DNA of 64,000 nt from Defluviimonas sp. SAOS-178_SWC (GTDB taxonomy: Bacteria > Pseudomonadota > Alphaproteobacteria > Rhodobacterales > Rhodobacteraceae), in contig NZ_CP156081.1 of NCBI RefSeq assembly GCF_039830135.1, forward strand, positions 3,272,001 through 3,336,000, in the 5' to 3' direction. This document shows positions 14,505-40,473 of the stretch, in pieces. Both the position numbers and the translations under genes were made by a program. Each line of letters opens with the position of its first letter. Position 1 is the stretch's first letter. Under the pieces are notes generated by a model. That model did not search any database. It was given only the letters and a program-made list of their open reading frames with translations, and was not told the origin of the DNA.

Positions 14505-17500
14505 CGGTTCATCCCCGCATGTGCGGGGAACGCAGTAGGGGTCAAACCTACGTTACGATGTTCTGCGGTTTATCCCCGCATGTGCGGGGAACGCGATTTG
14601 ATCGATTACTACGCGCTCATCTACAACGGTTCATCCCCGGATGTGCGGGGAACGCGTAGGGGAAGCCGGAACCGACGTGGTGATCGGCGGTTCATCCCCG
14701 CATGTGCGGGGAACGCATCGCCGCGACGCAGACGGTGACGATCAACACCGGTTCATCCCCGCATGTGCGGGGAACGCGCGGCCAGTTGCCCGCCAGAATT
14801 AATCTGCGGCGGTTCATCCCCGCATGTGCGGGGAACGCTTCGATCTGCTGCCCGGCGAGGAGGTGCAGAGCGGTTCATCCCCGCCTGTGCGGGGAACGCA
14901 GTCTCAGGTGCGGCTCGCCCTCGTCCAGCGTCGGTTCATCCCCGCATGTGCGGGGAACGCTATCCATCATGTCAGGCGAATTCATCCCAGTCCGGTTCAT
15001 CCCCGCATGTGCGGGGAACGCATCACCAGGCCGCCGGATTCGAAGGTATGGACCGGTTCATCCCCGCATGTGCGGGGAACGCGCCGCCCCACCAGCCACG
15101 GGCAGCTCGGCTGGCGGTTCATCCCCGCATGTGCGGGGAACGCATCTCCTGATCAACCTTTCCCCATACCCACCTCGGTTCATCCCCGCATGTGCGGGGA
15201 ACGCGAGGCGGCGCGGGTTGGTTACATCACCGTGGCCGGTTCATCCCCGCATGTGCGGGGAACGCGAACGTGATCCTGTCGTCCCCGGCCAGGCGGTCGG
15301 TTCATCCCCGCATGTGCGGGGAACGCATGACGCCCCGCAAAATCCTCCGCTCCATCCGCGGTTCATCCCCGCATGTGCGGGGAACGCTTGTCGTGCATCC
15401 TGACAATGGGAGGTTCCGGCGGTTCATCCCCGCATGTGCGGGGAACGCGGTAGGTGTCTTTCCTACATTACGATGTTCTGCGGTTCATCCCCGCATGTGC
15501 GGGGAACGCGGTAGGGCTCTTTCCTACATTACGATGTTCTGCGGTTCATCCCCGCATGTGCGGGGAACGCCTGGCACAGTTCGCCGATCAGGGAGGCAAC
15601 GCCGGTTCATCCCCGCATGTGCGGGGAACGCAAGGATATGACGACCGACCAAGGCGGCGATATCGGTTCATCCCCGCATGTGCGGGGAACGCGGGATAGA
15701 TGACCGACACGCCCGTGCTGTCCTCGGTTCATCCCCGCATGTGCGGGGAACGCTATGAGCCGATGAATGACGTCTGGAACCGCAACGGTTCATCCCCGCA
15801 TGTGCGGGGAACGCGAAATAATCCGATCAATCGCCGACGCCGACGCCGGTTCATCCCCGCATGTGCGGGGAACGCTCTGCCGTTCTCTCGGACTAGCCGA
15901 GGTAATGCGGTTCATCCCCGCATGTGCGGGGAACGCCGCGGCAGTTGTTCCGATTGCCATTAGATCACCGGTTCATCCCCGCATGTGCGGGGAACGCGCG
16001 CCGAGAGGTCGCCGAGCGCGCCGCTGATCGCGGTTCATCCCCGCATGTGCGGGGAACGCGCTTCCGTTTCCGTTTCGACTGCGGTTTGTTCCGGTTCATC
16101 CCCGCATGTGCGGGGAACGCGAGACGCGGGTGATCCGCATCCCGTTGCCGACCGGTTCATCCCCGCATGTGCGGGGAACGCGCATTCCCCCGCCGCCACC
16201 TTGGCGCGTAGCTCGGTTCATCCCCGCATGTGCGGGGAACGCACCGTAACGCCGCCGCCGCCGATGGCCGAGACCGGTTCATCCCCGCATGTGCGGGGAA
16301 CGCTCGACCAGCACGTTCTCGAACGCGAGCGAGCGCGGTTCATCCCCGCATGTGCGGGGAACGCGTGGGGGTCCGAAGTCCGGTGTACAACCTCATCGGT
16401 TCATCCCCGCATGTGCGGGGAACGCATTTCCCAATTCCGGGCCGCCTGATAGGCCGACGGTTCATCCCCGCATGTGCGGGGAACGCGGTGTGACCATGAA
16501 AGCTGGCGCGCGAAAAAGCGGTTCATCCCCGCATGTGCGGGGAACGCTTGGCCTCTTCCATCCGGTCCAGAACTTCCTTCGGTTCATCCCCGCATGTGCG
16601 GGGAACGCTTGATAACGCGCTTACGGGCGGGCCGATCATGCGGTTCATCCCCGCATGTGCGGGGAACGCGGTAGGGGTCAAAATCCCGTTACGATGTTCT
16701 GCGGTTCATCCCCGCATGTGCGGGGAACGCCACTCTGCCCCGTATCCACGTTCCTGCCGTGTCGGTTCATCCCCGCATGTGCGGGGAACGCAAACGAACC
16801 CGGCGAATACGGATGCTCAAACCCGGTTCATCCCCGCATGTGCGGGGAACGCATCCCGTGGCGGATGCCGGTCGGGATGTGGGACGGTTCATCCCCGCAT
16901 GTGCGGGGAACGCGGCAGGACCGAGAGATTGCGCGCGGTTGCCGCCGGTTCATCCCCGCATGTGCGGGGAACGCTCGCTCTCGGCCTTCACCATTTCGGG
17001 AATGACCGGTTCATCCCCGCATGTGCGGGGAACGCAATGCCAGAGGCGCGGAGCGCACCTGATCCGGCGGTTCATCCCCGCATGTGCGGGGAACGCAGGG
17101 ACCGGCACCCACTCATCCCCGCTGAGAACGGTTCATCCCCGCATGTGCGGGGAACGCGCTGCGGCCTGAGACTGGCTCAAACCGAGGGCCGGTTCATCCC
17201 CGCATGTGCGGGGAACGCGGCACGTCGAGCGAGTAATTGCCCGCCGCGTCCGGTTCATCCCCGCATGTGCGGGGAACGCAGCTCGCCGATCCGCGCCCGT
17301 CTCGCAGCGACCGGTTCATCCCCGCATGTGCGGGGAACGCTGCGGCTCAGGGCAACGTCGGGATGCTGTCGCCGGTTCATCCCCGCATGTGCGGGGAACG
17401 CGCCGGCAGCCTCGGCATGGGCCGATCTCAGCGGCGGTTCATCCCCGCATGTGCGGGGAACGCTCAGACCCCTCCTCGCGGATCGTCGGGATGAGCGGTT

Positions 17501-19415
17501 CATCCCCGCATGTGCGGGGAACGCGGATTGCCAAAGGGACAGGCGATCTATCCGGCCGGTTCATCCCCGCATGTGCGGGGAACGCTTCCGCCCGGTGCCC
17601 TTGACGAAGCCAAGCGGCGGTTCATCCCCGCATGTGCGGGGAACGCTACAAGAAGGACGGCAAGTGGTGCCTGTCCATCGGTTCATCCCCGCATGTGCGG
17701 GGAACGCCTCTCGAAAAAGCCTGCGCTCGGCGCGGCGTTCGGTTCATCCCCGCATGTGCGGGGAACGCCGCGTGTTCTGACAGCACAGCACGAACCACTC
17801 CGGTTCATCCCCGCATGTGCGGGGAACGCTGGGTTTGATTGGTGGCTGTTACCATTCGAAACGGTTCATCCCCGCATGTGCGGGGAACGCACGTCGCCCG
17901 CGTATTCGGCGGGGCGGTAATCCGGTTCATCCCCGCATGTGCGGGGAACGCTTTTCGAGGACGAGGCTGCCTTTGACATTCACCGGTTCATCCCCGCATG
18001 TGCGGGGAACGCACTGTTGAATACCACCATATGTGCCGAAAGTGCGGTTCATCCCCGCATGTGCGGGGAACGCGAACCTCCCATTGTCAGGATGCACGAT
18101 AAGGACGGTTCATCCCCGCATGTGCGGGGAACGCGAGACCACCATGACTATGGTAAAACATGACCGCGGTTCATCCCCGCATGTGCGGGGAACGCTCCCA
18201 CGGGAACGGCGCGACGGTCACAGCCGACGGTTCATCCCCGCATGTGCGGGGAACGCCTGGCGGGCGGCGGATATCGCGCGGCAATGTTCGGTTCATCCCC
18301 GCATGTGCGGGGAACGCCGCGTCCGGTAGTATTCCTGGATGATCTCGCCCGGTTCATCCCCGCATGTGCGGGGAACGCGGCGTGGACGTGCGACGTATCA
18401 TCGGATCAGTCGGTTCATCCCCGCATGTGCGGGGAACGCTACCTGGGAACGCACCAGATCGGCAGGCACAGCGGTTCATCCCCGCATGTGCGGGGAACGC
18501 GTGAATTATGCCGCCATGAGTGAAAACGCGCCCGGTTCATCCCCGCATGTGCGGGGAACGCTTTTCTGCTCATTGCGCCGACAGGCTCCATTCCGGTTCA
18601 TCCCCGCATGTGCGGGGAACGCGAGGCCCTGCTGCATGAAAGGTATGGAATAGCCGGTTCATCCCCGCATGTGCGGGGAACGCGACTGAGCCAATAACTC
18701 CATGTCGGCCCACCACGGTTCATCCCCGCATGTGCGGGGAACGCGGCAGAACCGAGAGTTTACGCGCGGTCTCGGCCGGTTCATCCCCGCATGTGCGGGG
18801 AACGCGCCCCCAACGACGCCCCGTCCATGCCCGCGATCGGTTCATCCCCGCATGTGCGGGGAACGCTCTGTTGACGCGCAGCACATTGAAACGAGGCGCG
18901 GTTCATCCCCGCATGTGCGGGGAACGCTTAGCAGCCCAGGCTATTCCCGCGCCTTAGTCCGGTTCATCCCCGCATGTGCGGGGAACGCGGCGGCGGGGTG
19001 CGGTCGGCCTGACCGAGTTTCGGTTCATCCCCGCATGTGCGGGGAACGCGGCGGCTCTCTGCGCCGCGTAGCCCGTGAATTCGGTTCATCCCCGCATGTG
19101 CGGGGAACGCTCGTATTGGTAAAGCGTGTTCCCCGAGGCGTCCGGTTCATCCCCGCATGTGCGGGGAACGCCTTGTGTGCAGCAGCAATAAGTTTGATCA
19201 GCCCGGTTCATCCCCGCATGTGCGGGGAACGCTTTCACACATATGGGGTATGCGCAAGGGGTTCCGGTTCATCCCCGCATGTGCGGGGAACGCGTGGTGT
19301 CACCATCAAGCGCCAGGTCTACCAGCGGTTCATCCCCGCATGTGCGGGGAACGCTCTTCATGTCGCTGCGGATCTCGTAGACCGGGCGGTTCATCCCCGC
19401 ATGTGCGGGGAACGC
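14505..19415 (-). CRISPR. Type I-E CRISPR array, 81 repeats and 80 spacers
   Basis: Repeats of 29 bp begin at 14505 and recur every 61 bp to 19387-19415. Two spacers are 33 nt (15998-16030 and 17402-17434); the other 78 are 32 nt. In crRNA sense (minus strand) the repeat begins GCGTTCCCCGC and ends GCGGGGATGAACCG, with the stem typical of I-E repeats. Orientation is set by the minus-strand cas genes ending at 19497, by a leader-like sequence at 19416-19496, and by variant repeats only near the far end. The variants are one base change each in the repeats at 14566, 14627 and 14871. Several spacers are related to one another (see findings). The array should be transcribed from the cas2 side and cut by Cas6e. 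Confidence 0.98.
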
Positions 19416-19496: not shown

Positions 19497-20730
<1,234 letters not shown>

Positions 20731-20734
<4 letters not shown>

Positions 20735-21389
20735 GTCGTACGCCTGATGAGCATCAGACCGCAGCCGAATGCTTTAGCACGGCCGAAGCCCCGCCCGAGT
20801 TGTGCAACGAATGCGTCCGGATCCGTGACCTCGATCCGCCCGCTCAGATCAAGAATGCCAAATCGCGGCTGTCCCTTGCGCGGGCCGGACGGGCCTTCGG
20901 TCGAATAGTCTTCGGCCAGCGCGGAGAGAACGCGGAAGCCTGCCTTTTCGCCCTGACGCTCAAGCCAGGCGCGGCCCTCTCTGCTTGCGGCCTCCATCCG
21001 CTCGGGCGCGCGGGCGCCCTCAGGCAGGGCGTGAATCGCATCCATCACCACATCGACACGCTCTCCACTCCGCTTCTGCCGCGTGGCATTGGCGCGGAGC
21101 ACAACCCCAAGCCGGTCCCCGGAAGCCAGAACAGGCGCAAACTCTTTCACCTCGGGCGTTTCGAACAGCGGATGTGGCACCGGCGGACGTTCTGACAACA
21201 CCAGAAACCGCCCTTGCCCTTCCGATCGCCAGAGAAAATCCCGCCGGCGCTCTGCCCCATCGGCAAAGAGCGTCCAGATCAGCCGGTGGTGCGCGTCCAT
21301 CGCACGCCCGGCCTCGGTGGGATCCAGTAGCCCCTGCAAGGCCGCATTTCCCGCCCCGCGATCCAGGCGCAGCCGCGACAGATAAAGCG

Positions 21390-21393
<4 letters not shown>
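20731..21393 (-). CDS. cas6e: Cas6e (CasE), pre-crRNA endoribonuclease
   Basis: A 220-residue Cas6e. The N-terminal segment DAHHRLIWTLFADG contains the expected catalytic His, and a glycine-rich loop near the C-terminus (GRGFGRAKAFGCGLML) is the RAMP hallmark. It cleaves at the base of the repeat stem and stays bound to the crRNA 3' handle in Cascade. It overlaps cas5 and cas1 by 4 bases each, so the downstream half of the operon is tightly coupled. Confidence 0.95.
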
Positions 21394-23635
<2,242 letters not shown>

Positions 23636-23639
<4 letters not shown>

Positions 23640-25138
23640 CTCCCCTCCTTCCCGGGCTTTTCCAGCCCAAGTGCCGCGTGGATCTTCGACCCATGAAGCG
23701 TCCGCAGCAGCCCTGACCGCGCCTCGACCAGCGTCTTCATCGTCGGCCGCGTGCTGAAGGGCTGCACATCCGCCGGGATCGCATCGTAATCCTGCGGTCG
23801 GGCCAGCGCGTCGAACTGCGCCAGCGACTGCCTGCGCAACACCCGCAGCCAGTCGGCCGACAGCGCCGCCCCGCCCTGCCCCGCCACGAGCCTGCGCAGG
23901 GCCGTGCGGAACTTCGCCTCCGTCGCCTGATAAAAGGCCTCACGCAGCGGCTCGGCCGGCGTGCCCTCGCCCGTCATCAGCGCCACTTTCGCCGCGCGCA
24001 TCAGCGCGCGCGAGGCCAGATCCGCCGCCTCGACCAGTTGCGCGGCCTGCCAGGTTTCGGGCGCATCGGGGCCGAAGGGAAAGAGCGGCTGTTCCGACCA
24101 GATGAAATCCAGCGGCGACATGTTCGACATCGCCCATCCACCCGCCAGGATCGTCGCGTTCAGATCGTCGGTGCGATCCAGATAGGTTGCCACAGCCCCC
24201 GCGCGCCAGCGCGTCTGCCCTGCCTCGGGCTGCGCCAGAGAAACCCCCATCCAGTTGCGGTAGCTTTGCGGACCTGGACGCGGATGCACCGCCAGCCTCT
24301 CCTCCCCCGCCTTCATCGCGTAATAGGGGGACAGCGGATGCTGCCAGAGGCCGTAGTTGGTGCCGTAGGGGCGCTGGATCACGCCGGTGATCCGGCCGCC
24401 CTCCGCCACCAGCCGCAGGCGGCGCGGCATGCCGAAGAACACCTCGACCGGCGAAAAATCGGCCTCGCGCTGATGCCTCACCTGCCCCTTTTCCGAGGTC
24501 ACAGCCGGCCGCATCCAGGGCAGTTCCGTCAGATCGGCAAGCGCCCGCCCCTCGGGAACATTCGCCCAGACCAGCGACCAGAGCGGCGCCGGGCCCGGAC
24601 GTGACGGCTGCGCCAGCGTGACCAGCGGTCCGCCGCCGCGCATCGAGGTGCGGTTGCCCGCACCGCCTGCCGGGGCATGGGCCTGCAAGGTGTAAAGCGC
24701 CATCGCCGCCGCGGGCAGGTCGAGCGCGCCGAATCGGCCGCGCTTGACCATCAGATCGGCATTCTTCCTGGCCGCGTTTTCGCCTGCCGCGTCGATGAAC
24801 AGCATCTCGGGCGATTGCGCCTCGCCCTCCAGCGGCGCGATATCCTGCAAGAACCGCGCCCCGTCGCCCAGCAGGTGAAAGGCCGGGGCCAGCGGCGCCA
24901 GCGCCGCGCGCAGGGCCTGCGGATCGGGTTTGCGGGCCAGCCAGTCATCGGTGCCACCGGGGGGCGCCGCCAGATAGACAAGGCCGATCAGCAGCTCGAG
25001 ACAGGCAAGGTTGAAGTCGGGCCGCGGCCAGTCCAGCACCTCGACGCCTTCCTCGGCGATCTGGTCGGGCCGGATCAGCTCACGCGCCCCGGCGCGGCGC
25101 ACAGGAATCCACGGATCAAGGATCAAATTCAAGGACAT
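23636..25138 (-). CDS. cse1: Cse1 / Cas8e (CasA), PAM-recognising large subunit
   Basis: A 500-residue Cse1. It starts MSLNLILDPWIPVRRAG, the standard N-terminus of the family, and continues with the PAM/L1-loop region and a C-terminal four-helix bundle (from about 370). It recognises the PAM and recruits Cas3. It is the first gene of the Cascade-adaptation operon, with its own promoter at 25171-25200 and a weak AAGAG ribosome site. A 150-bp gap separates it from cas3. A single degenerate CRISPR repeat lies in that gap. Confidence 0.95.
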
Positions 25139-25170
25139 GGCCGCTCTTGAAAGAACGTGAAAGCAAGATC

Positions 25171-25200
25171 AGGCTAGGCGGTTCGCGCCAAGGTTGTCAA
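25171..25200 (-). promoter_or_regulatory. Probable promoter of the cse1-cas2 operon
   Basis: On the minus strand TTGACA (25200-25195) and TAGCCT (25176-25171) are separated by 18 bases, giving a good sigma-70-type promoter. The transcript would start near 25164, about 26 bases before the cse1 ATG. It lies just downstream of the solitary repeat at 25236-25264. Confidence 0.55.
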
Positions 25201-25235
25201 GCAGGATTCATCCTTTCAGTCTATCCTCTTACAGA

Positions 25236-25264
25236 CTTTATATCCCCGCTATGGCGGGGAACGC
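25236..25264 (-). repeat. Solitary degenerate CRISPR repeat upstream of the Cascade promoter
   Basis: ATCCCCGC-N4-GCGGGGAACGC (25242-25264, plus strand) matches the array repeat except in the 4-base loop and at four of the six bases at the handle end (25236-25241). In crRNA sense it runs GCGTTCCCCGC, CATA, GCGGGGAT, so the stem is kept by symmetry. It is in the same orientation as the array and sits 35 bases upstream of the -35 box of the cse1 promoter. No second repeat follows at 61 bp. This resembles the mini-CRISPR guides (CreR) that repress cas promoters or toxin genes in other type I systems. Confidence 0.7.
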
Positions 25265-25288
25265 GTCCGCTAACCTCTGACACACGGG

Positions 25289-27829
25289 TCATCCCCGGCC
25301 TTCCGGGGCCTCTCTCAGCAGGCCACGAGTGGCATCGTAACGCAAGCCCCCCGCAATGCGACCGTCCACCTCAACTACGGCAATCTTGCGCACTGCAAGC
25401 TCCCAGTCCTTCCAGCCTGCGCGCAAGGCAGCGATCCCGGGCCTGGCCTGTTCGGCCTCAAGACCGCTCATCTCATAACGCCGGCGGGAGATCTGCACCT
25501 CCGACAGCGCCTGCGCCCGGAACGGAACCTCATCTGCGATCCAGGGCCGTAACCCATTCCCCTCACGTCGCATCAGGATCAGCACCACCTGATCCTGGCC
25601 GAGCCGGGTCGGATATTTCCGGTCGTCCTCGAACGCACCTTCCGACTCTCCATAATGTCGGGTCGGATTCAGCACGTTGAGCCGCGCCTGTGCGGCCTCG
25701 GCCAACCCCTGCCCCTCGCGCTCGATCCCGGCCTGCCGCAAGGGTTCAGGTACCTCCGGGACATCACCGTAGGCCTCGGCGATCAGGTCACGCAGCCGGC
25801 CCGGGGCCTCGATCCCGCCCTCGCGCAGGAGCGCCCGCGCCGTGCGCCAGAGCACATCCGACGGATAGACCCAGCCGCCCGAAGGCTGCGTCTCGAAGAT
25901 CCAGCGCGCGGTTTCCACCCGCTCGGGGTCCGGGGTCAGCAGATGCAGCCGGGGGCCGGGTACCGGGCGGGCGCCCCGGGCGTGACGCCAGAGCCGACCC
26001 GCCCGCTGGATCAGATCGCCCATCGGCGCGAGGTCACTGACCATCAGATCGAAATCCAGATCGAGCGAGGCCTGCACGATCTGGGTCGCGACCAGAACGC
26101 GACCCGCCCGGCCCTGCCCGTCCCGACCGAAACGGCGGAGCATGTCGGCCTCGATCGCGGCGCGGTCCCCCATCGCGAAGCGCGCATGCAGCAGATCGGC
26201 CGCAATCCCCGCGCCGCGCAGAGCCTCGACCGCCGCGATCGCGTCATCCACGGCATTGCGCACCCAGACACACGCCGCCCCCGCCGCCACGCCCTCGGCG
26301 ATCACCGTCACGGCATCCTCCATCGCGGCCAGCCGCACAACCTCGACCCGCCGGCAGGTTTCCGGCACCGGTGCGACCGGCCCGGCCGAGACGCTTCGGC
26401 CGATCAGCGACAGCGCCGGGTAGCTGTGCGGCAGATCGGACACCTCGCCACCGCCGCGCCCGGATAGGAACGCGTTCGCATAGCCGTCGCGCATCCGGGT
26501 CGGCAAGGTCGCCGTCATCACGATGGCAGAGCCGCCGAACATCGCATGGAAGCGCAGCAGCGCCTTGAGTTCGGTCTCCATATAGGGGTCGTAGTCATGC
26601 GCCTCATCGACGATCAAGATCCTGGTGGCGAGCGCCGCCATGCGCAGCGTATGGAACCGCGTCGGCAGGACCGACATGAGCGCCTGATCCACCGTGCCCA
26701 CGCTGATCTCGGCCAGAAGCGACAGCCGCCGGTCGTCCGCGATCCAGGGCGCGCAGGCATCCTCGGCGTCAAATTCCTCCTCCGAGGCGTACCACTTGCC
26801 GCACAGGGCCGCGAATTCGGTGTTGAGCTTGCGCTGCCCGTGGGCCAGCGCCAGCGACGGATGCCCTTCGAAGATCCGACCCAACTGCCCGCGCATCCGC
26901 GTGAACATCGCGTCCGAACTCGCCATCGACGGCAGAGCGAAGAATATCCCGCGCCCCTTGCCCTGCGACAGCATCCGCTGCGCAAGGATCAGCGCCGCCT
27001 CGGTCTTGCCCGACCCGGTCGCGTCCTCGATCAGCGCGAGCATGGGGCCCTCGGGCAGCACCGCATCCGCAACCGCCGCCTGCATCGGCCGCAGCGCCCC
27101 CGAAACCAGCCGGGTCGGGTCCGGCACGCGCGGGCGCGACAGGCCAAGGCCGGACTTGGCGACCGCAATCTTCGCCCGCGCCTGCGCCAGCGGCCAATAC
27201 TCCGCAAGCGTCTGGCCGGGGTCGGCAAACTGAAACCAATCACTGTTCGAACCGATCCAGTCAGCCTCGGTCACCAGCCCGGACAAGAGCCAGGACTGGC
27301 GGCGCGCCGCGTGCTCGTCGATCCCCTCCAGCGAAGCCGGGGCGAAGAGCAGCGCGATCAGGCGCAACGCGGCTTCGGCATCCGACAGGGCTTCTGCGCC
27401 GATCGCCTGGAAACGCCGCATCTGGCCGGGCCGAAGGAGGCTTTCGACCGGCCGCCCATGATGGCCCGCCACCGCCTGCCGCAGGATCTTGCGCGCCGTC
27501 GGAGTGCCGCCGAGGAAACCGGCGAGAAGCGCGTCCAACCGGCTCAGCAGAACCTCTGACAGTTCCCAATGCCGGCAATGCTGAGGCGGCGGTTCATTCT
27601 GCTCGATCTGGCGGCGGAACGCAGCGGAGATCTTGCCCAGATCGTGCAGCGCGATCATCAAAAGCAAGGCGTTGCGTTGCTGATCTGGCAAACCCGCCAG
27701 AGCCGACCCCGGCCAAAGCTCGGCCGCGACAGCACTCACATCCAGCATGTGAAACAATGCCGGATGGCGGCTCCCGTTTGCGGCGGATTTGCCGGGCCAA
27801 TCGAGACATCGCGTTTCCTGCGGACGCAT
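25289..27829 (-). CDS. cas3: Cas3 (type I-E) HD nuclease-helicase
   Basis: An 846-residue Cas3. The HD nuclease domain comes first (HPALFHMLDV, then ALHDLGKI and GHHGRP). The SF2 helicase follows: Walker A EDATGSGKTEAALILAQ, DEAH box LIVDEAHDYD, motif III VMTATLP, motif VI IQRAGRLWRH. It unwinds and degrades the target strand after Cascade binding. The ATG at 27829 overlaps the preceding stop (TGATG) and has GGTGG upstream; a GTG at 27850 would add seven residues. It is separated from cse1 by a gap holding the lone repeat and the Cascade promoter, so cas3 is probably expressed from further upstream. Confidence 0.95.
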   Translation of the reverse strand: MRPQETRCLDWPGKSAANGSRHPALFHMLDVSAVAAELWPGSALAGLPDQQRNALLLMIALHDLGKISAAFRRQIEQNEPPPQHCRHWELSEVLLSRLDALLAGFLGGTPTARKILRQAVAGHHGRPVESLLRPGQMRRFQAIGAEALSDAEAALRLIALLFAPASLEGIDEHAARRQSWLLSGLVTEADWIGSNSDWFQFADPGQTLAEYWPLAQARAKIAVAKSGLGLSRPRVPDPTRLVSGALRPMQAAVADAVLPEGPMLALIEDATGSGKTEAALILAQRMLSQGKGRGIFFALPSMASSDAMFTRMRGQLGRIFEGHPSLALAHGQRKLNTEFAALCGKWYASEEEFDAEDACAPWIADDRRLSLLAEISVGTVDQALMSVLPTRFHTLRMAALATRILIVDEAHDYDPYMETELKALLRFHAMFGGSAIVMTATLPTRMRDGYANAFLSGRGGGEVSDLPHSYPALSLIGRSVSAGPVAPVPETCRRVEVVRLAAMEDAVTVIAEGVAAGAACVWVRNAVDDAIAAVEALRGAGIAADLLHARFAMGDRAAIEADMLRRFGRDGQGRAGRVLVATQIVQASLDLDFDLMVSDLAPMGDLIQRAGRLWRHARGARPVPGPRLHLLTPDPERVETARWIFETQPSGGWVYPSDVLWRTARALLREGGIEAPGRLRDLIAEAYGDVPEVPEPLRQAGIEREGQGLAEAAQARLNVLNPTRHYGESEGAFEDDRKYPTRLGQDQVVLILMRREGNGLRPWIADEVPFRAQALSEVQISRRRYEMSGLEAEQARPGIAALRAGWKDWELAVRKIAVVEVDGRIAGGLRYDATRGLLREAPEGRG

Positions 27830-28704
27830 CAGCGGTCCACCAAGCGACACGGCGCTCGGCTCGCCGCAACACGAACCACGCGCGTCAATGCGTCCTCGAT
27901 GTCCCGGTCCCCGCCCGGTGTCGCCTCCAGGTCCTGCACGATTAGCGCCAGTGCGGGCAAAATGCTTTCAAGCGCATCCACACTTGGCGAGACCGCGTCG
28001 CGCTGGCTCGGAAACCTGAGCTTCGTCCAGGCGCGGTGGTTGTCCCTCAGGAGCTGCCGCTGGGTCTGCGTGCGGAACCGGTAATGCAGCGCGATCATTT
28101 CCTGTTCATCGAGCTGCAGCCGCTTAGGCAGTACGCGGTTCGCCATGACTGCCATCAGATAGGCGCAGGAGGGCTGTATCCCGGTTATCGCCTCCCCCTT
28201 GCGCCGCGCACGGCGCGCGTCGAGCACATGCTGCCGCATGAACGCGTCGCGCTGCCCGGCAATGTGATCAAAGGCACTGGCTTCCTCAGCGGTGAGCGGT
28301 CCGTCGAATGTGACCGTGTTCGCGCCATCAATGACGATGTCATCAGGGTGCGGAAGAATCTCGGGCGGTGGCTTTCCTTGTTTCTCGCCCGCGGCAATGA
28401 CGCGCCTTGCCTTTCGCTGGTAGCCTCGCCAGAGGGCCGCAGTGTCCGCCTTGACTTGGGTTTCGTTGGCTATTGCTTCCTTCAGGGTCTGGAACGCGAC
28501 GCGCTGAGCATAGGGGCTCCCCTTGATCGATGTCTCCATGAGCTTGCGCACGAGAACCTCATAGACGCTCATCTCTTGGGTCCCGTCACCGTCGCGCACG
28601 CTCACGACCCGCCGCGCCTCCGCGAGCATTGCGCGCTCCAGCTCGGTCAGAGTCGCAGGTGTCGCGGGCCCCTGCCCCCGATTCCCGTTTCGCCGTTCGC
28701 TCAT
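27829..28704 (-). CDS. DUF5681-type protein paired with ParB-methyltransferase
   Basis: A 291-residue protein resembling the DUF5681 proteins found next to ParB-methyltransferase fusions. It has a basic RRNGNRGQGP start, then LTELERAMLAEARRVVSV and a helical segment (KGSPYAQRVAFQTLKEAI). No catalytic motif is visible, and the C-terminal half looks like a mixed-charge helical domain. It overlaps the methyltransferase stop by 4 bases and the cas3 start by one, so it is wedged in a coupled three-gene unit. Its function is unknown. Such pairs are common in phage-like and integrated elements. Confidence 0.65.
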   Translation of the reverse strand: MSERRNGNRGQGPATPATLTELERAMLAEARRVVSVRDGDGTQEMSVYEVLVRKLMETSIKGSPYAQRVAFQTLKEAIANETQVKADTAALWRGYQRKARRVIAAGEKQGKPPPEILPHPDDIVIDGANTVTFDGPLTAEEASAFDHIAGQRDAFMRQHVLDARRARRKGEAITGIQPSCAYLMAVMANRVLPKRLQLDEQEMIALHYRFRTQTQRQLLRDNHRAWTKLRFPSQRDAVSPSVDALESILPALALIVQDLEATPGGDRDIEDALTRVVRVAASRAPCRLVDR

Positions 28705-30056
28705 TGCGTGACCTTCTCGATGGCCGGAGACACGCCAACCTCGGCGTCATCGAAGCGTGCGCCGTCTGCGGCCCGCACCGCCGGGCGACCGGAATAGGCC
28801 TGCCAGCGTCGAAGGGTCACGTCACAGTACTGCGGATCGCATTCGACCAACCGGGCACGGCGCCCACAACTTTCAGCAGCAATGAGCGTCGAGCCGGAAC
28901 CCGCAAACGGGTCAAGGACCACCTCGCCACGACGCGAACAGTCCCGGATCGCATCGGCGACAAGCGCAACGGGCTTGACGGTCGGATGCATGGCGAGCGC
29001 CTCTTCCGCGGCCCGCCCCGGCACGTTGACCCCGGCATAGTCCCAGACATTGGTGCGGTATCGCCCTGTGTCCCCGAGACCGAAACTGTTCGTATGCGCT
29101 CCCGTCCCCACCTTGAACACGAAGACGAGCTCGTGCTTGGAGCGATAGAACGTCCCCATGCCAGCATTCGTCTTGTTCCAGACGCAGAGGTTCTTCAGCT
29201 CGCTGAACACGGCACTCCCAGCCGCAAGCAATTCACCCATATGGCGCCAATCCATACAAACAAATGCGATGGCGCCGTCGCGTGCAATCCGCGCCGCATT
29301 GCCAAGCGACGCCTCCAGAAAGGTCACAAAGGCCGCAGGGCTCATTTCGCCGGAGGCAAAGGCAAACTCACGATGCCTCACCCGTCCGAGCCCCGAGACA
29401 TGGCCGTCGATCGGCACGTTGTAGGGGGGATCGGTGAAGATCAGGTCGATCGGCTGCCCTCCGGCCAGACGGTCGATCGCCTCGGGATCACGGGCGTCGC
29501 CGCAGATCAGGACATGGTCACCAAGCTGCCAGAGATCGCCAGGGCGCGTCACCACGGGGCCGTCCCGGTGCAGCGGAACCAGATCCTCCCGTCCAGAGCT
29601 TTCCATGCCCTTGCTCCGCGCCGCATCGAGCGTGAGGTCGATTTCCGCCAGCGAGAACCCGGTCACTTCCAGATCGAAGCCGATGTCGATCAGTCCCTGC
29701 AGCTCGATCGCCAGCGTATCCCGGTCCCAGCCTGCGTTCTCCGCCAGCTTGTTGTCCGCAAGCACGTAGGCGCGCCGTTCCTCCTGGCTCAGATGTGACA
29801 AGGCGATCGTCGGCACCTCCGAAAGTCCCAGGACTTTCGCGGCTGCGACCCTGCCATGACCGGCAATGATCCCGCCGGCATCATCGATCAGGACCGGATT
29901 GGTGAAGCCGAACCGGGTGATGCTGTCGGCGATCTGCCGGATCTGACGGCGCGAATGCGTGCGCGCATTCCCGGCATATGGAGAAAGCGTACTAACCTGC
30001 CGCATTCTGATGCTAGGAGGCAACTGTGTGGTGGTGCCGTCGGGGGCGTTCAACAT
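28701..30056 (-). CDS. ParB-N / DNA N4- or N6-methyltransferase fusion
   Basis: A 451-residue fusion. The N-terminal ParB/Srx-like domain (about 15-110) contains the GGIIAGHGRVAAAKVLG motif. The C-terminal methyltransferase has its catalytic DPPYN motif (IFTDPPYNVP, near 215) before the AdoMet-binding FxGxG motif (VVLDPFAGSGSTLIAAE, near 405), which is the beta-class order shared with CcrM-type enzymes. No restriction endonuclease is adjacent, so it looks like an orphan or phage-type methylase. Its first 60-70 codons and upstream region are duplicated at 39972-40270. Confidence 0.85.
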   Translation of the reverse strand: MLNAPDGTTTQLPPSIRMRQVSTLSPYAGNARTHSRRQIRQIADSITRFGFTNPVLIDDAGGIIAGHGRVAAAKVLGLSEVPTIALSHLSQEERRAYVLADNKLAENAGWDRDTLAIELQGLIDIGFDLEVTGFSLAEIDLTLDAARSKGMESSGREDLVPLHRDGPVVTRPGDLWQLGDHVLICGDARDPEAIDRLAGGQPIDLIFTDPPYNVPIDGHVSGLGRVRHREFAFASGEMSPAAFVTFLEASLGNAARIARDGAIAFVCMDWRHMGELLAAGSAVFSELKNLCVWNKTNAGMGTFYRSKHELVFVFKVGTGAHTNSFGLGDTGRYRTNVWDYAGVNVPGRAAEEALAMHPTVKPVALVADAIRDCSRRGEVVLDPFAGSGSTLIAAESCGRRARLVECDPQYCDVTLRRWQAYSGRPAVRAADGARFDDAEVGVSPAIEKVTQ

Positions 30057-30157
30057 GGCCTGTTCTTCCTACGCTCTGGCCGGGGCAAACCGTTTGGCCC
30101 GGCCGTGAAGCGAGTCTAAGCATTGACAAAGCCATGCGTCCAGCTACCAGAAGTTGT
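29861..30157. repeat. Direct repeat copy A (parB 5' end plus upstream region)
   Basis: About 297 bp covering the first 65 codons of the ParB-methyltransferase gene and 100 bp upstream recur in the same orientation at 39972-40270, at roughly 90% identity. Both copies contain CATTGACAAAGCCATGCGTC. This copy belongs to the intact gene. Together they bracket 9.8 kb containing the Pot/PfkB cluster. Confidence 0.85.
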
Positions 30158-30383
30158 GAATACTCACCCTCAGGTCGCACAATTTCGCTAGAATTCAACC
30201 TTATGCAGATATTTTTGAAGACCTGCCGTTTAAAGGGGTGTTTAATGGCATTTGAATACCCCGTTAACTGATTTGCGGCCGTTCGAGTCTCGATTATCAC
30301 GATTTCGTGAGCCGTGACGCCAATGGTCCAAAGTTCGACTTGAGCGGCGCGAACTTCACGCTATGTCCGTCTGGCCTGCTGCC
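30158..30383. other. A+T-rich intergenic stretch after the ParB gene start
   Basis: No gene is supported. The sequence is A+T-richer than its neighbours and leads into the IS3 remnant at 30384. It marks the left junction of the inserted metabolic cluster. No terminal inverted repeat could be recognised here. Confidence 0.4.
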
Positions 30384-34113: not shown

Positions 34114-35331
34114 ATGACATCGACAGCCACACCCGTGACAGGGAAACAACGAGGCCGACGTAGGCTGGAACGCTCGACCGTCGTAGGTCTGGCTCTGATC
34201 GCGCCGCTTTCTCTCGTGATCATCCTGTTCCTGCTTTTGCCGCTTTCTCGGTTCCTCTCGCTCAGCGCAAACAACACGGAAGCCGCGGGTTGGCTGTCAC
34301 ATACGTCGGCTGCTCTTGCCGGTTGGTCGGGCGAGGAACTGCCGTCAGACGATGCCTATGCAGCGATTGCCAAGGACGTCCGGGGCAATGCGGAATTGAC
34401 ATCGAAACTCGCGGCCCGGTTGAATTTCTTCGAAGGCGGGATGATCAGCCTGCTGCGGCGCACTTCGGCAAAGATCGACTCAATCCCGCCGACCCGCGAC
34501 GGTTTTGTCGCGTTTCACAAGGATTGGGGCGACCTCGAGACCTGGCGGTCGATCTATCTGGTGTCTCAGCCGCTCCTGATCGAACACTACCTCAATGCAC
34601 TTGATCTGCGCGCCGACAACCCGACCCGGGTGACTTCGATCGAACAGCAGCCAGAGCGGCAGCGCATCTTCCAAGGTCTCTGGCTCCGTACGATCCTCGT
34701 CGCATTGGTCGTGATCTGCGCCTGCACTTTGATTGGCTATCCATTGGCCTTCTACCTGTCCCGTGCCCGCGGTTTCGCCTTCATGCTCGGCATGGGAATG
34801 GTCCTGCTCCCGTTCTGGACGCCGCTCCTGGCTCGGATCACCAGTTGGCAGGTCCTTCTGGAAACGACGGGCGTTATTCCCACCGCCCTTGCTGCTTCGG
34901 GGTTGATCGAGGGTCGGATGCCTGCGTTGTTCAACAATCTCTTCGCGACCATACTGGTCATGACCTATGTGCTGTTGCCTTTTGCGGTCTTGCCCACCTA
35001 TGCGGTAATGAACCGGGTCTCTCCATCGCTGTTTCGTGCTGCGCTCACCCTCGGCGCCAGCCCCGGGCGCGCGTTCTTTCAGGTCTATTTGCCGCAAACG
35101 CTTCCCGGAGTGATCGCAGGCAGCATCCTGATCTTCGTGTTCTCGTTTGGCTTCTATCTGACACCTGAGCTCGTTGGCGGCCCTGGCGGCAGCCTGATCG
35201 GCAACCAGATCGCGTATCACTTCTCAAAGTCGCTCAACTGGGGCCTGGCAGCGGCTCTGTCCGGTCTTCTGCTGGTCATCATCGCCGCTGCGGCGCTCCT
35301 GCTGCGCTCGATAGCACAGCGCCAAAGCTGA
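34114..35331 (+). CDS. ABC transporter permease, PotB-like, with periplasmic insertion
   Basis: A 405-residue permease. The first membrane segment (about 24-48) is followed by an insertion of about 130 residues, probably periplasmic, before the usual core of five further helices. The EAA loop (RAALTLGASPGRAFFQVYLPQTLPG) is near 310-334. Length exceeds ordinary PotB (about 280) because of the insertion. It pairs with the permease at 35356 and the ATPase at 37211. Confidence 0.88.
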   Translation: MTSTATPVTGKQRGRRRLERSTVVGLALIAPLSLVIILFLLLPLSRFLSLSANNTEAAGWLSHTSAALAGWSGEELPSDDAYAAIAKDVRGNAELTSKLAARLNFFEGGMISLLRRTSAKIDSIPPTRDGFVAFHKDWGDLETWRSIYLVSQPLLIEHYLNALDLRADNPTRVTSIEQQPERQRIFQGLWLRTILVALVVICACTLIGYPLAFYLSRARGFAFMLGMGMVLLPFWTPLLARITSWQVLLETTGVIPTALAASGLIEGRMPALFNNLFATILVMTYVLLPFAVLPTYAVMNRVSPSLFRAALTLGASPGRAFFQVYLPQTLPGVIAGSILIFVFSFGFYLTPELVGGPGGSLIGNQIAYHFSKSLNWGLAAALSGLLLVIIAAAALLLRSIAQRQS

Positions 35332-39971: not shown

Positions 39972-40167
39972 CGGCAATGATCTCACCAGCATCATCGATC
40001 AGGACCGGATTGGTGAAGCCGAACCGGGTGATGCTGTCGGCGATCTGACGGATCTGACGGCGCGAATGCGTGCGCGCATTCCCGGCATTTGGAGAAAGTG
40101 TGCTCACCTGCCGCATCCGGATGCTTGGGGGCAACGGTGTGGTAGTGTCGTCGGGGGCGTTCAACAT
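39972..40167 (-). pseudogene. Truncated ParB N-terminal remnant
   Basis: Starting at ATG 40167 (MLNAPDDTTTPLPPSIRMRQ) the reading is nearly identical to the first 60-65 residues of the ParB-methyltransferase at 28701-30056. It then breaks after VLIDDAGEIIAV where the IS21-side sequence begins. The methyltransferase domain is gone. It is the right-hand relic of the duplication that brackets the Pot/PfkB cluster. Confidence 0.85.
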
Positions 40168-40270
40168 GGCCTGTTCTACCTGCGCTCTGGCCCGGGGGCA
40201 AACCGTTTAGCCCGGCCGTGAAGGGAGTCTAAGCATTGACAAAGCCATGCGTCCAGCCACCAGAGGTTGT
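39972..40270. repeat. Direct repeat copy B (truncated parB 5' end plus upstream region)
   Basis: It matches 29861-30157 with scattered substitutions and a few one-base gaps, in the same orientation. Homology extends about 100 bp upstream of the parB start, to GAGGTTGT at 40270. Recombination between the copies would delete about 10 kb containing the LysR gene and the Pot/PfkB cluster. Confidence 0.85.
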
Positions 40271-40473
40271 ACGAACTCCCCCCAGCCCACATCTCGCCCC
40301 TCGGGTGGGCACATATTTTGCTCACTGGCGAATATAGGTGGCCGAAAGGGCTTAGCGTAGGATTTACCACCGTCCGGCAACAGACCCCGGAAACTGTTCA
40401 GATCAACCGAACCACCTCTATCCTCCGGACCACCACCAGAAGCAAGCCGCGCGCCCACCCCAACGGGACTCCT
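40271..40473. other. Intergenic stretch downstream of aspartase gene
   Basis: No gene is supported over these 203 bases. It separates the duplicated parB relic from the 3' end of the aspartase gene. No clear terminator hairpin was found. Confidence 0.4.

Follow-up and report, generated by a model that had tools for sequence, protein, structure and literature searches.

The window analysed here, a 64,000-nucleotide stretch of the Defluviimonas sp. SAOS-178_SWC genome, carries a type I-E CRISPR-Cas locus whose genes read as open frames; ORFs and domain matches show that the cognate Cascade and Cas6e genes are present. Between cas3 and cas8e (cse1) lies a gap of 150 nt, and it is in this gap that we find a mini-CRISPR of two degenerate repeats, psiR1 and psiR2, separated by a short guide, psiS (Table 1).

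Table 1. Features of the type I-E locus and of the mini-CRISPR between cas3 and cas8e (window positions).
Feature	Position	Strand	Description
cas3	25289..27850	minus	stop codon TGA at 25289-25291, inside the psiR1 handle
psiR1, first degenerate repeat	25285..25313	minus	6-bp stem CCCCGG-AAGG-CCGGGG, then handle ATGACCCG (25285-25292)
psiS, guide	25265..25284	minus	20 nt, TGTGTCAGAGGTTAGCGGAC; bounded by the psiR1 handle and psiR2
Predicted mature CreR RNA	25244..25292	minus	49 nt: 8-nt handle, 20-nt guide, 21-nt 3' hairpin; deduced from type I-E Cas6e cut sites
psiR2, second degenerate repeat	25236..25264	minus	GCGTTCCCCGCCATAGCGGGGATATAAAG; intact 3' hairpin, worn handle
PAM	25236..25238	minus	AAG, last three bases of psiR2
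Target	25221..25235	minus	TCTGTAAGAGGATAG; 12/15 to guide, mismatches at 2, 6 and 12
-35-like box	25195..25200	minus	TTGACA, 6/6; starts 35 nt after the first target base
-10-like box	25171..25176	minus	TAGCCT, 3/6, 18 nt after the -35-like box; read by eye, weak
cas8e/cse1	23636..25138	minus	TIGR02547, PF09481; first of the Cascade genes; presumed repressed gene
cse2, cas7e, cas5e, cas6e, cas1e, cas2e	19497..23639	minus	
CRISPR array	14505..19415	minus	81 repeats; minus is the crRNA sense

Directly upstream of cas3 are a DUF5681 gene and a ParB-like/DNA methyltransferase gene (27829-30056, minus strand), and the DUF5681 and cas3 ORFs, as listed, overlap by 22 bases, so that cas3 may be part of a longer operon. 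Direct repeats of about 310 bp, 90-92% identical, occupy positions 29861-30169 and 39972-40282 of the window with about 10.1 kb between them; one copy covers the start of the methyltransferase gene, and the pair are possibly the ends of an inserted segment, or a duplication. In the array itself three spacers (15419-15570 and 16640-16730) start on the plus strand with GGTAGG and end with TTACGATGTTCTG (GGTAGGTGTC..., GGTAGGGCTC... and GGTAGGGGTC...), near-duplicates that lie in separate array units.

Read in the crRNA sense, psiR2 is identical to the array repeat (GCGTTCCCCGCACATGCGGGGATGAACCG) at 21 of 29 positions: bases 1-11 and the two 6-bp arms of the stem are unchanged, the 4-base loop is altered and four of the eight handle bases are kept. 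Because an unrelated site at 34987, which has no stem, also scores 21/29, identity of this degree is insufficient proof of psiR2 by itself. The stem pattern GCGTTCCCCGCNNNNGCGGGGAT, however, occurs 81 times in the window (80 array copies plus psiR2) and never in 100 shuffles, so psiR2 is not a chance resemblance and the element is real. A sequence-only reading of this DNA had described psiR2 as a lone CRISPR repeat in crRNA orientation with its stem arms kept; the repeat, its arms and its orientation all stand, but it is not alone: psiR1, which reads in the same direction, precedes it by 20 nt and shares sequence with the end of cas3. psiR1 matches the array repeat at 18/29 positions and has a 6-bp stem and a 4-nt loop, the same lengths as in psiR2, and its handle equals the array handle (ATGAACCG) at seven of eight bases. 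The best-kept parts of the two repeats are the psiR1 handle and the psiR2 hairpin, which are the parts that a CreR-type RNA uses. The worn handle of psiR2 makes sense because no handle role is needed there and its last three bases supply the PAM. Repeats this divergent, together with a guide of 20 nt where array spacers have 32-33 nt, rule out an ordinary unit of the array, and two degenerate repeats that lie outside the array and beside cas genes are what a CreR locus would have.

The guide finds its counterpart immediately beyond psiR2. Over its first 15 nt, the best non-self match to psiS on either strand of the 64-kb window is the adjacent AAG-flanked site at 25221-25235 (12/15, with the runner-up at 11/15). 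Among 20,000 shuffled guides, 39 reached 12/15 somewhere in the 150-bp gap with any flank and 5 did so with a PAM. A test of the guide/target pattern gave 0.02 expected matches, for a pattern that was built after the pair had been seen. Partial complementarity of the guide to PAM-flanked DNA is again a CreR property, although the mismatch at position 2 falls in the seed and should weaken binding. Where the earlier reading erred is in the side of psiR2 on which it sought the guide: it took the 32 nt after the repeat, which contain the target, whereas the guide is the 20 nt upstream of it. Those 32 nt were rejected as a guide, since their first 15 nt with PAM AAG and at most three mismatches gave 10 matches in the window's own genome against 34 for a reversed-pattern control; with fewer than three mismatches this own-genome search found only the target itself (0) and psiS (2). 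We also rejected an array origin for psiS, the best match among 77 array pieces (split on the exact repeat) being 9/15, which is background.

In the DNA psiS is preceded by CCG, a flank that, according to PMC5904413, gave background-level binding only in E. coli, and the guide's own DNA should therefore be spared. The same paper states that Cascade can bind with an AAG PAM and no more than five seed pairs, that one base in every six is flipped out and that 18-25 bp are needed for robust interference. By this yardstick the match between psiS and its target is long enough for binding and too short for cutting.

When the predicted mature RNA is folded the psiR2 hairpin forms, and the molecule as a whole folds no better than shuffles (z -0.95). 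A 6-bp hairpin is possible in psiR1, likewise no better than shuffles (z about -0.95), and the 83-nt precursor gives z -1.94. An Rfam search returned no match at E values up to 1, and a scan of positions 25100-25800 called neither a promoter nor a terminator for a guide RNA.

The target lies 97 nt before the cas8e start. The TTGACA box that the earlier reading placed about 32 bases beyond the repeat is present, but at 35 nt, and the probable cse1 promoter to which that reading assigned it is weak: the -35-like box is perfect, yet the best -10-like box matches three of six bases and no promoter was called in the scan of 25100-25800. A stretch of 20 nt separates the last of the 15 matched bases from the -35-like box, so repression, if it occurs, may work indirectly. 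Cascade on the target could stand in the way of polymerase contacts upstream of -35, of an activator, or of read-in transcription from cas3.

We surveyed relatives for the same arrangement. The cas8e loci included 26 from named genomes and others from plasmid records, of which 11 out of 40 contributed; genome searches took in 22 members of the genus and 394, 390, 385 and 398 genomes at the family, order, class and phylum levels, where 21, 22, 12 and 33 genomes had a match (these counts include the window's own genome at each level, and some genomes are shared between levels). The family genomes include Jhaorihella and an uncultured Rhodobacteraceae bacterium, since L028 repeats L001 and L036 repeats L013. 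We scanned 115 upstream regions, 104 of them non-redundant. Three loci had too little upstream DNA (L040, L046, L083), and L067, L070 and L103 (weak or partial), L101 (same gene as L104) and four further matches of the phylum-level search without a locus were left out of the detector.

Detectors were built to find, upstream of cas8e, a handle, guide, hairpin, PAM and target in that order. The first required the handle, one of four PAMs and at least 12/18 matches between guide and target, and the hairpin was added in later ones. Set A (at least 12/18, handle at least 5) had 22/104 positives against 5/312 shuffled regions, and set B (at least 9/12, handle at least 6/8, four PAMs, hairpin) had 19/104 against 2/312; an any-PAM set (at least 10/12) had 14/104, again against 2/312. 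A detector that dispensed with the PAM (at least 13/18, both strands) gave many matches, which we took as chance. As likely chance we dropped L066 from set B, and L031 and L086 from set C. The any-PAM search contributed L017 (PAM AAC), and L091 was found by eye (PAM AAA). Taken together, 21 loci among the 104 regions share the layout with guide letters that differ (L003, L011, L017, L020, L021, L022, L025, L027, which is the window's own, L037, L041, L044, L045, L053, L057, L062, L080, L084, L091, L094, L096 and L097); with L020-L022 counted once they make 19 loci.

Within the genus, 4 of the 22 genomes had a cas8e match: the window's own, G1038, G1043 and, weakly and partially, G1031. By eye, the element is absent from G1038 and G1043, the two other genus genomes with a substantial cas8e match; L102, from G1043, did enter set A and was taken as chance. 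The comparison across related genomes that the sequence-only reading had suggested speaks for a CreR-type guide through the recurrence of the layout and against one through these two genomes of the genus. Ten further loci have TTGAC 22-33 nt after the first target base and L080 has it at 45 nt; nine of the 21 loci have no TTGAC 12-52 nt after the target start, and in L025 the box, judged by eye, precedes the target. These spacings suggest that targets often lie just upstream of a -35-like box.

Mismatches between guide and target are not spread evenly. In the 19 loci, positions 1-12 carry 2, 1, 0, 0, 1, 14, 0, 1, 4, 3, 0 and 12 mismatches. Over the paired prefix, multiples of six account for 26 of 53 mismatches where 7.5 would be expected, and none of 20,000 permutations gave so high a figure. 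Set A, filtered and with the window removed, has 16 of 35 there against 4.8 expected, the filter omitting eight of its 22 members (L021 and L022, which nearly duplicate L020, and, as likely chance, L024, L049, L054, L082, L102 and L120). Unfiltered, the set has 13 of 22 mismatched at each of positions 6 and 12, and 4, 3, 2 and 2 at positions 5, 7, 11 and 13. The pile-up at 6 and 12, positions left unpaired in type I-E complexes, is the pattern to be expected if Cascade reads these guides. Position 6 is matched in 5 of the 19 loci, and PMC5904413 describes off-target sites matched at position 6 above chance (45%), so this position is not always free. Of all 19, psiS is the sole guide with a seed mismatch at position 2, and its pairing score is low (9; range 8-16). 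When L020 is compared with L022, guide and target differ in concert at positions 1, 4 and 15, and L022 loses pairing at 10 and 11; the concerted changes are small but direct evidence of selection on pairing near the PAM.

Guide length also follows a pattern. From psiS start to the 3' stem is 25 nt, where a 32-nt array spacer would give 37. Nine loci share the value of 37, three have 38 and one clade has 36; the six short guides give 31 (two loci), 25 (three, our own among them) and 24 (L025, off by one). One Cas7 unit of the Cascade backbone spans a step of 6 nt, and distances of 31 and 25 correspond to a loss of 6 or 12 nt, that is, to the Cas7 step. The clustering of the six short guides at 25 and 31 has P = 0.00018, assuming uniform lengths of 22-34 and with stem distances that were entered by hand and lengths reckoned from this window's repeat boundary. 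In type I-B, shortened guides repress and do not cut, according to PMC10989794 and PMC10551041; in type I-E, according to PMC7296934, spacers shortened by 6 or 12 still allow Cas3 degradation at a markedly reduced rate. A short guide with a partial match would, we infer, be doubly safe.

The TGA within the psiR1 handle (25291-25289) is the stop codon of cas3, and this overlap recurs. Following the cas3 frame by tblastn, we found that 10 of the 21 loci have the stop precisely at -7 relative to the guide (L003, L011, L025, L027, L045, L057, L062, L084, L096, L097); in nine others it lies at -10, 0, -17, -27, -38, -39, -48, -67 and +12, and L022 and L080 have no usable cas3 frame there. One tentative reading, to which we give well under an even chance, is that the guide RNA is carved from the 3' end of the cas3 mRNA, that a Cas6e cut at GGGG|AUGA would both free a short repressor guide and strip cas3 of its stop, and that short-guide Cascade repressors, with lengths quantised at about 20, 26 and 32 by the Cas7 step, might form a class of their own. 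Our estimate of it fell slightly because a stem of at least 5 bp ending at the expected cut site is found in only five of the ten stop-overlap loci (L025, L027, L062, L084, L097). The overlap may also have a trivial origin, in which a repeat happens to land on the end of cas3 and provides a stop in one of the three frames. The effect on cas3 is hypothetical. If the tentative reading were true, one Cas6e cut would lower Cascade and Cas3 together.

We consider it probable, if well short of certain, that we are dealing with a CreR-type mini-CRISPR, degenerate and two repeats long, whose guide leads Cascade to repress cas8e. The transcription, processing, binding, repression and feedback set out here are proposed from the DNA sequence. 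RNA from cas3, or from an unseen promoter, would run across both repeats, and Cas6e would cut after each hairpin to leave a crRNA-like RNA of 49 nt whose guide is 20 nt long. Loaded with this RNA, a shortened Cascade would bind the AAG-flanked site just upstream of the cas8e promoter and hinder transcription of cas8e and the downstream Cascade genes. Because the pairing is short and imperfect, Cas3 would not be licensed. More Cascade, or fewer competing crRNAs, would bring more repression, which amounts to negative feedback. The suggestion in the sequence-only reading of an autoregulatory guide is supported by the PAM-flanked partial match beside promoter-like sequence and by a layout that recurs in relatives.

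Other accounts of the locus have to be weighed against this one. That the element is functionless and in decay, left over from an older array or from a mini-CRISPR that formerly worked, would be in keeping with the wear of both repeats (18/29 and 21/29), with the seed mismatch at position 2 and with the two other cas8e-bearing genus genomes that have no element. We nevertheless think it unlikely, as the losses do not look random: the psiR1 handle and the psiR2 hairpin are kept while the other halves are more worn, and the guide falls short of 32 nt by exactly 12 and has its match in the adjoining DNA, next to the canonical PAM. The geometry of the relatives bears on a different history, in which a small RNA toxin, since lost, lay between target and cas8e and was kept in check by the guide, as in CreTA. 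In 15 of the 21 loci the distance from target to cas8e is 179-400 nt, room enough for a small gene, and some of those loci show hairpins and tiny ORFs by eye; our own target, however, is 97 nt from cas8e with no tiny ORF seen, and L017, L025, L080, L091 and L096 are also short (42-125 nt), so that with our own there are six loci that fit direct control of cas8e. A CreTA remnant is, to our judgement, quite improbable here. That the hairpins are mere structure at the cas3 3' end, an mRNA stabiliser or terminator, and that the match arose by chance is very improbable indeed: psiR1 does overlap the end of cas3 and can form a 6-bp hairpin, but no terminator was called, the geometry is repeat-like, a PAM-flanked match arose in so few of the shuffled guides and the layout recurs in relatives.

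The element adds to type I-E a case, taken apart piece by piece, in which RNA-guided self-control is likely, and the comparative sequence suggests that guides of this sort are read as Cascade would read DNA. Should the overlap with the cas3 stop prove to work, a Cas6e cut would balance Cascade against the Cas3 nuclease, a testable answer to how autoimmunity is limited. Natural guides of 20 and 26 nt could also inform type I repression tools that retain cas3.

Among known systems, the phage-borne solitary-repeat RNA anti-CRISPR Racr is likewise an ectopic repeat-like RNA (PMC10651486), but here a guide and a PAM-flanked target are present and the element sits within the cas locus of the host itself. 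Shortened type I crRNAs resemble psiS in that short guides repress in type I-B (PMC10989794 and PMC10551041); those, however, are engineered, whereas this short guide is natural and its match partial. CreTA, according to PMC9458426, likewise has in CreA two repeats of which psiR1 is more worn than psiR2, as here (18/29 against 21/29), and in the type I-B CreA described in PMC8501985 nucleotides 1-5 and 7-11 pair with the target, position 6 being skipped as it is in psiS. Unlike in CreTA, a toxin gene creT downstream of the target is not seen; inspection by eye of the 97 nt between target and cas8e showed no Shine-Dalgarno sequence with a mini-ORF. Many of the relatives look more like CreTA. 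In L011, L041, L044, L053, L062 and L094 the stretch from target to cas8e has, by eye, hairpins, a strong Shine-Dalgarno sequence and an ORF of 3-6 codons. The codons ATA, TTA, AGG and AGA are often rare, and some of these six tiny ORFs carry them; the six are candidates for toxin RNAs of type I-E CreTA. L020-L022 have, by eye, a conserved short ORF that starts ATGCGC after the targeted promoter-like stretch, with ATA ATA in L020 and L021 and AGA AGA in L022, and it may be a rare-codon toxin RNA.

The primary CreR paper is reportedly that of Liu et al. 2023. The mechanism is described in a review (PMC12737573) and CreR has already been reported for type I-E (PMC13131331), so that the present element would be a further CreR member. 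With CreR of types I-B, I-E and V-A it has in common a mini-CRISPR beside cas genes, degenerate repeats and a PAM-flanked partial match. In CreR the matched DNA is a cas promoter; here it lies beside a promoter-like sequence, a likely cas promoter with a poor -10. The sequence features tested fit CreR, and no toxin is seen. It differs in its 20-nt guide and in the cas3 stop codon within the psiR1 handle. A literature search over titles and the beginnings of abstracts returned no match for cas3 stops inside CreR handles or for CreR guides whose lengths step by 6 nt. Two features may be new to CreR: guide lengths of about 20, 26 or 32 nt, and a handle whose UGA is the stop codon of cas3.
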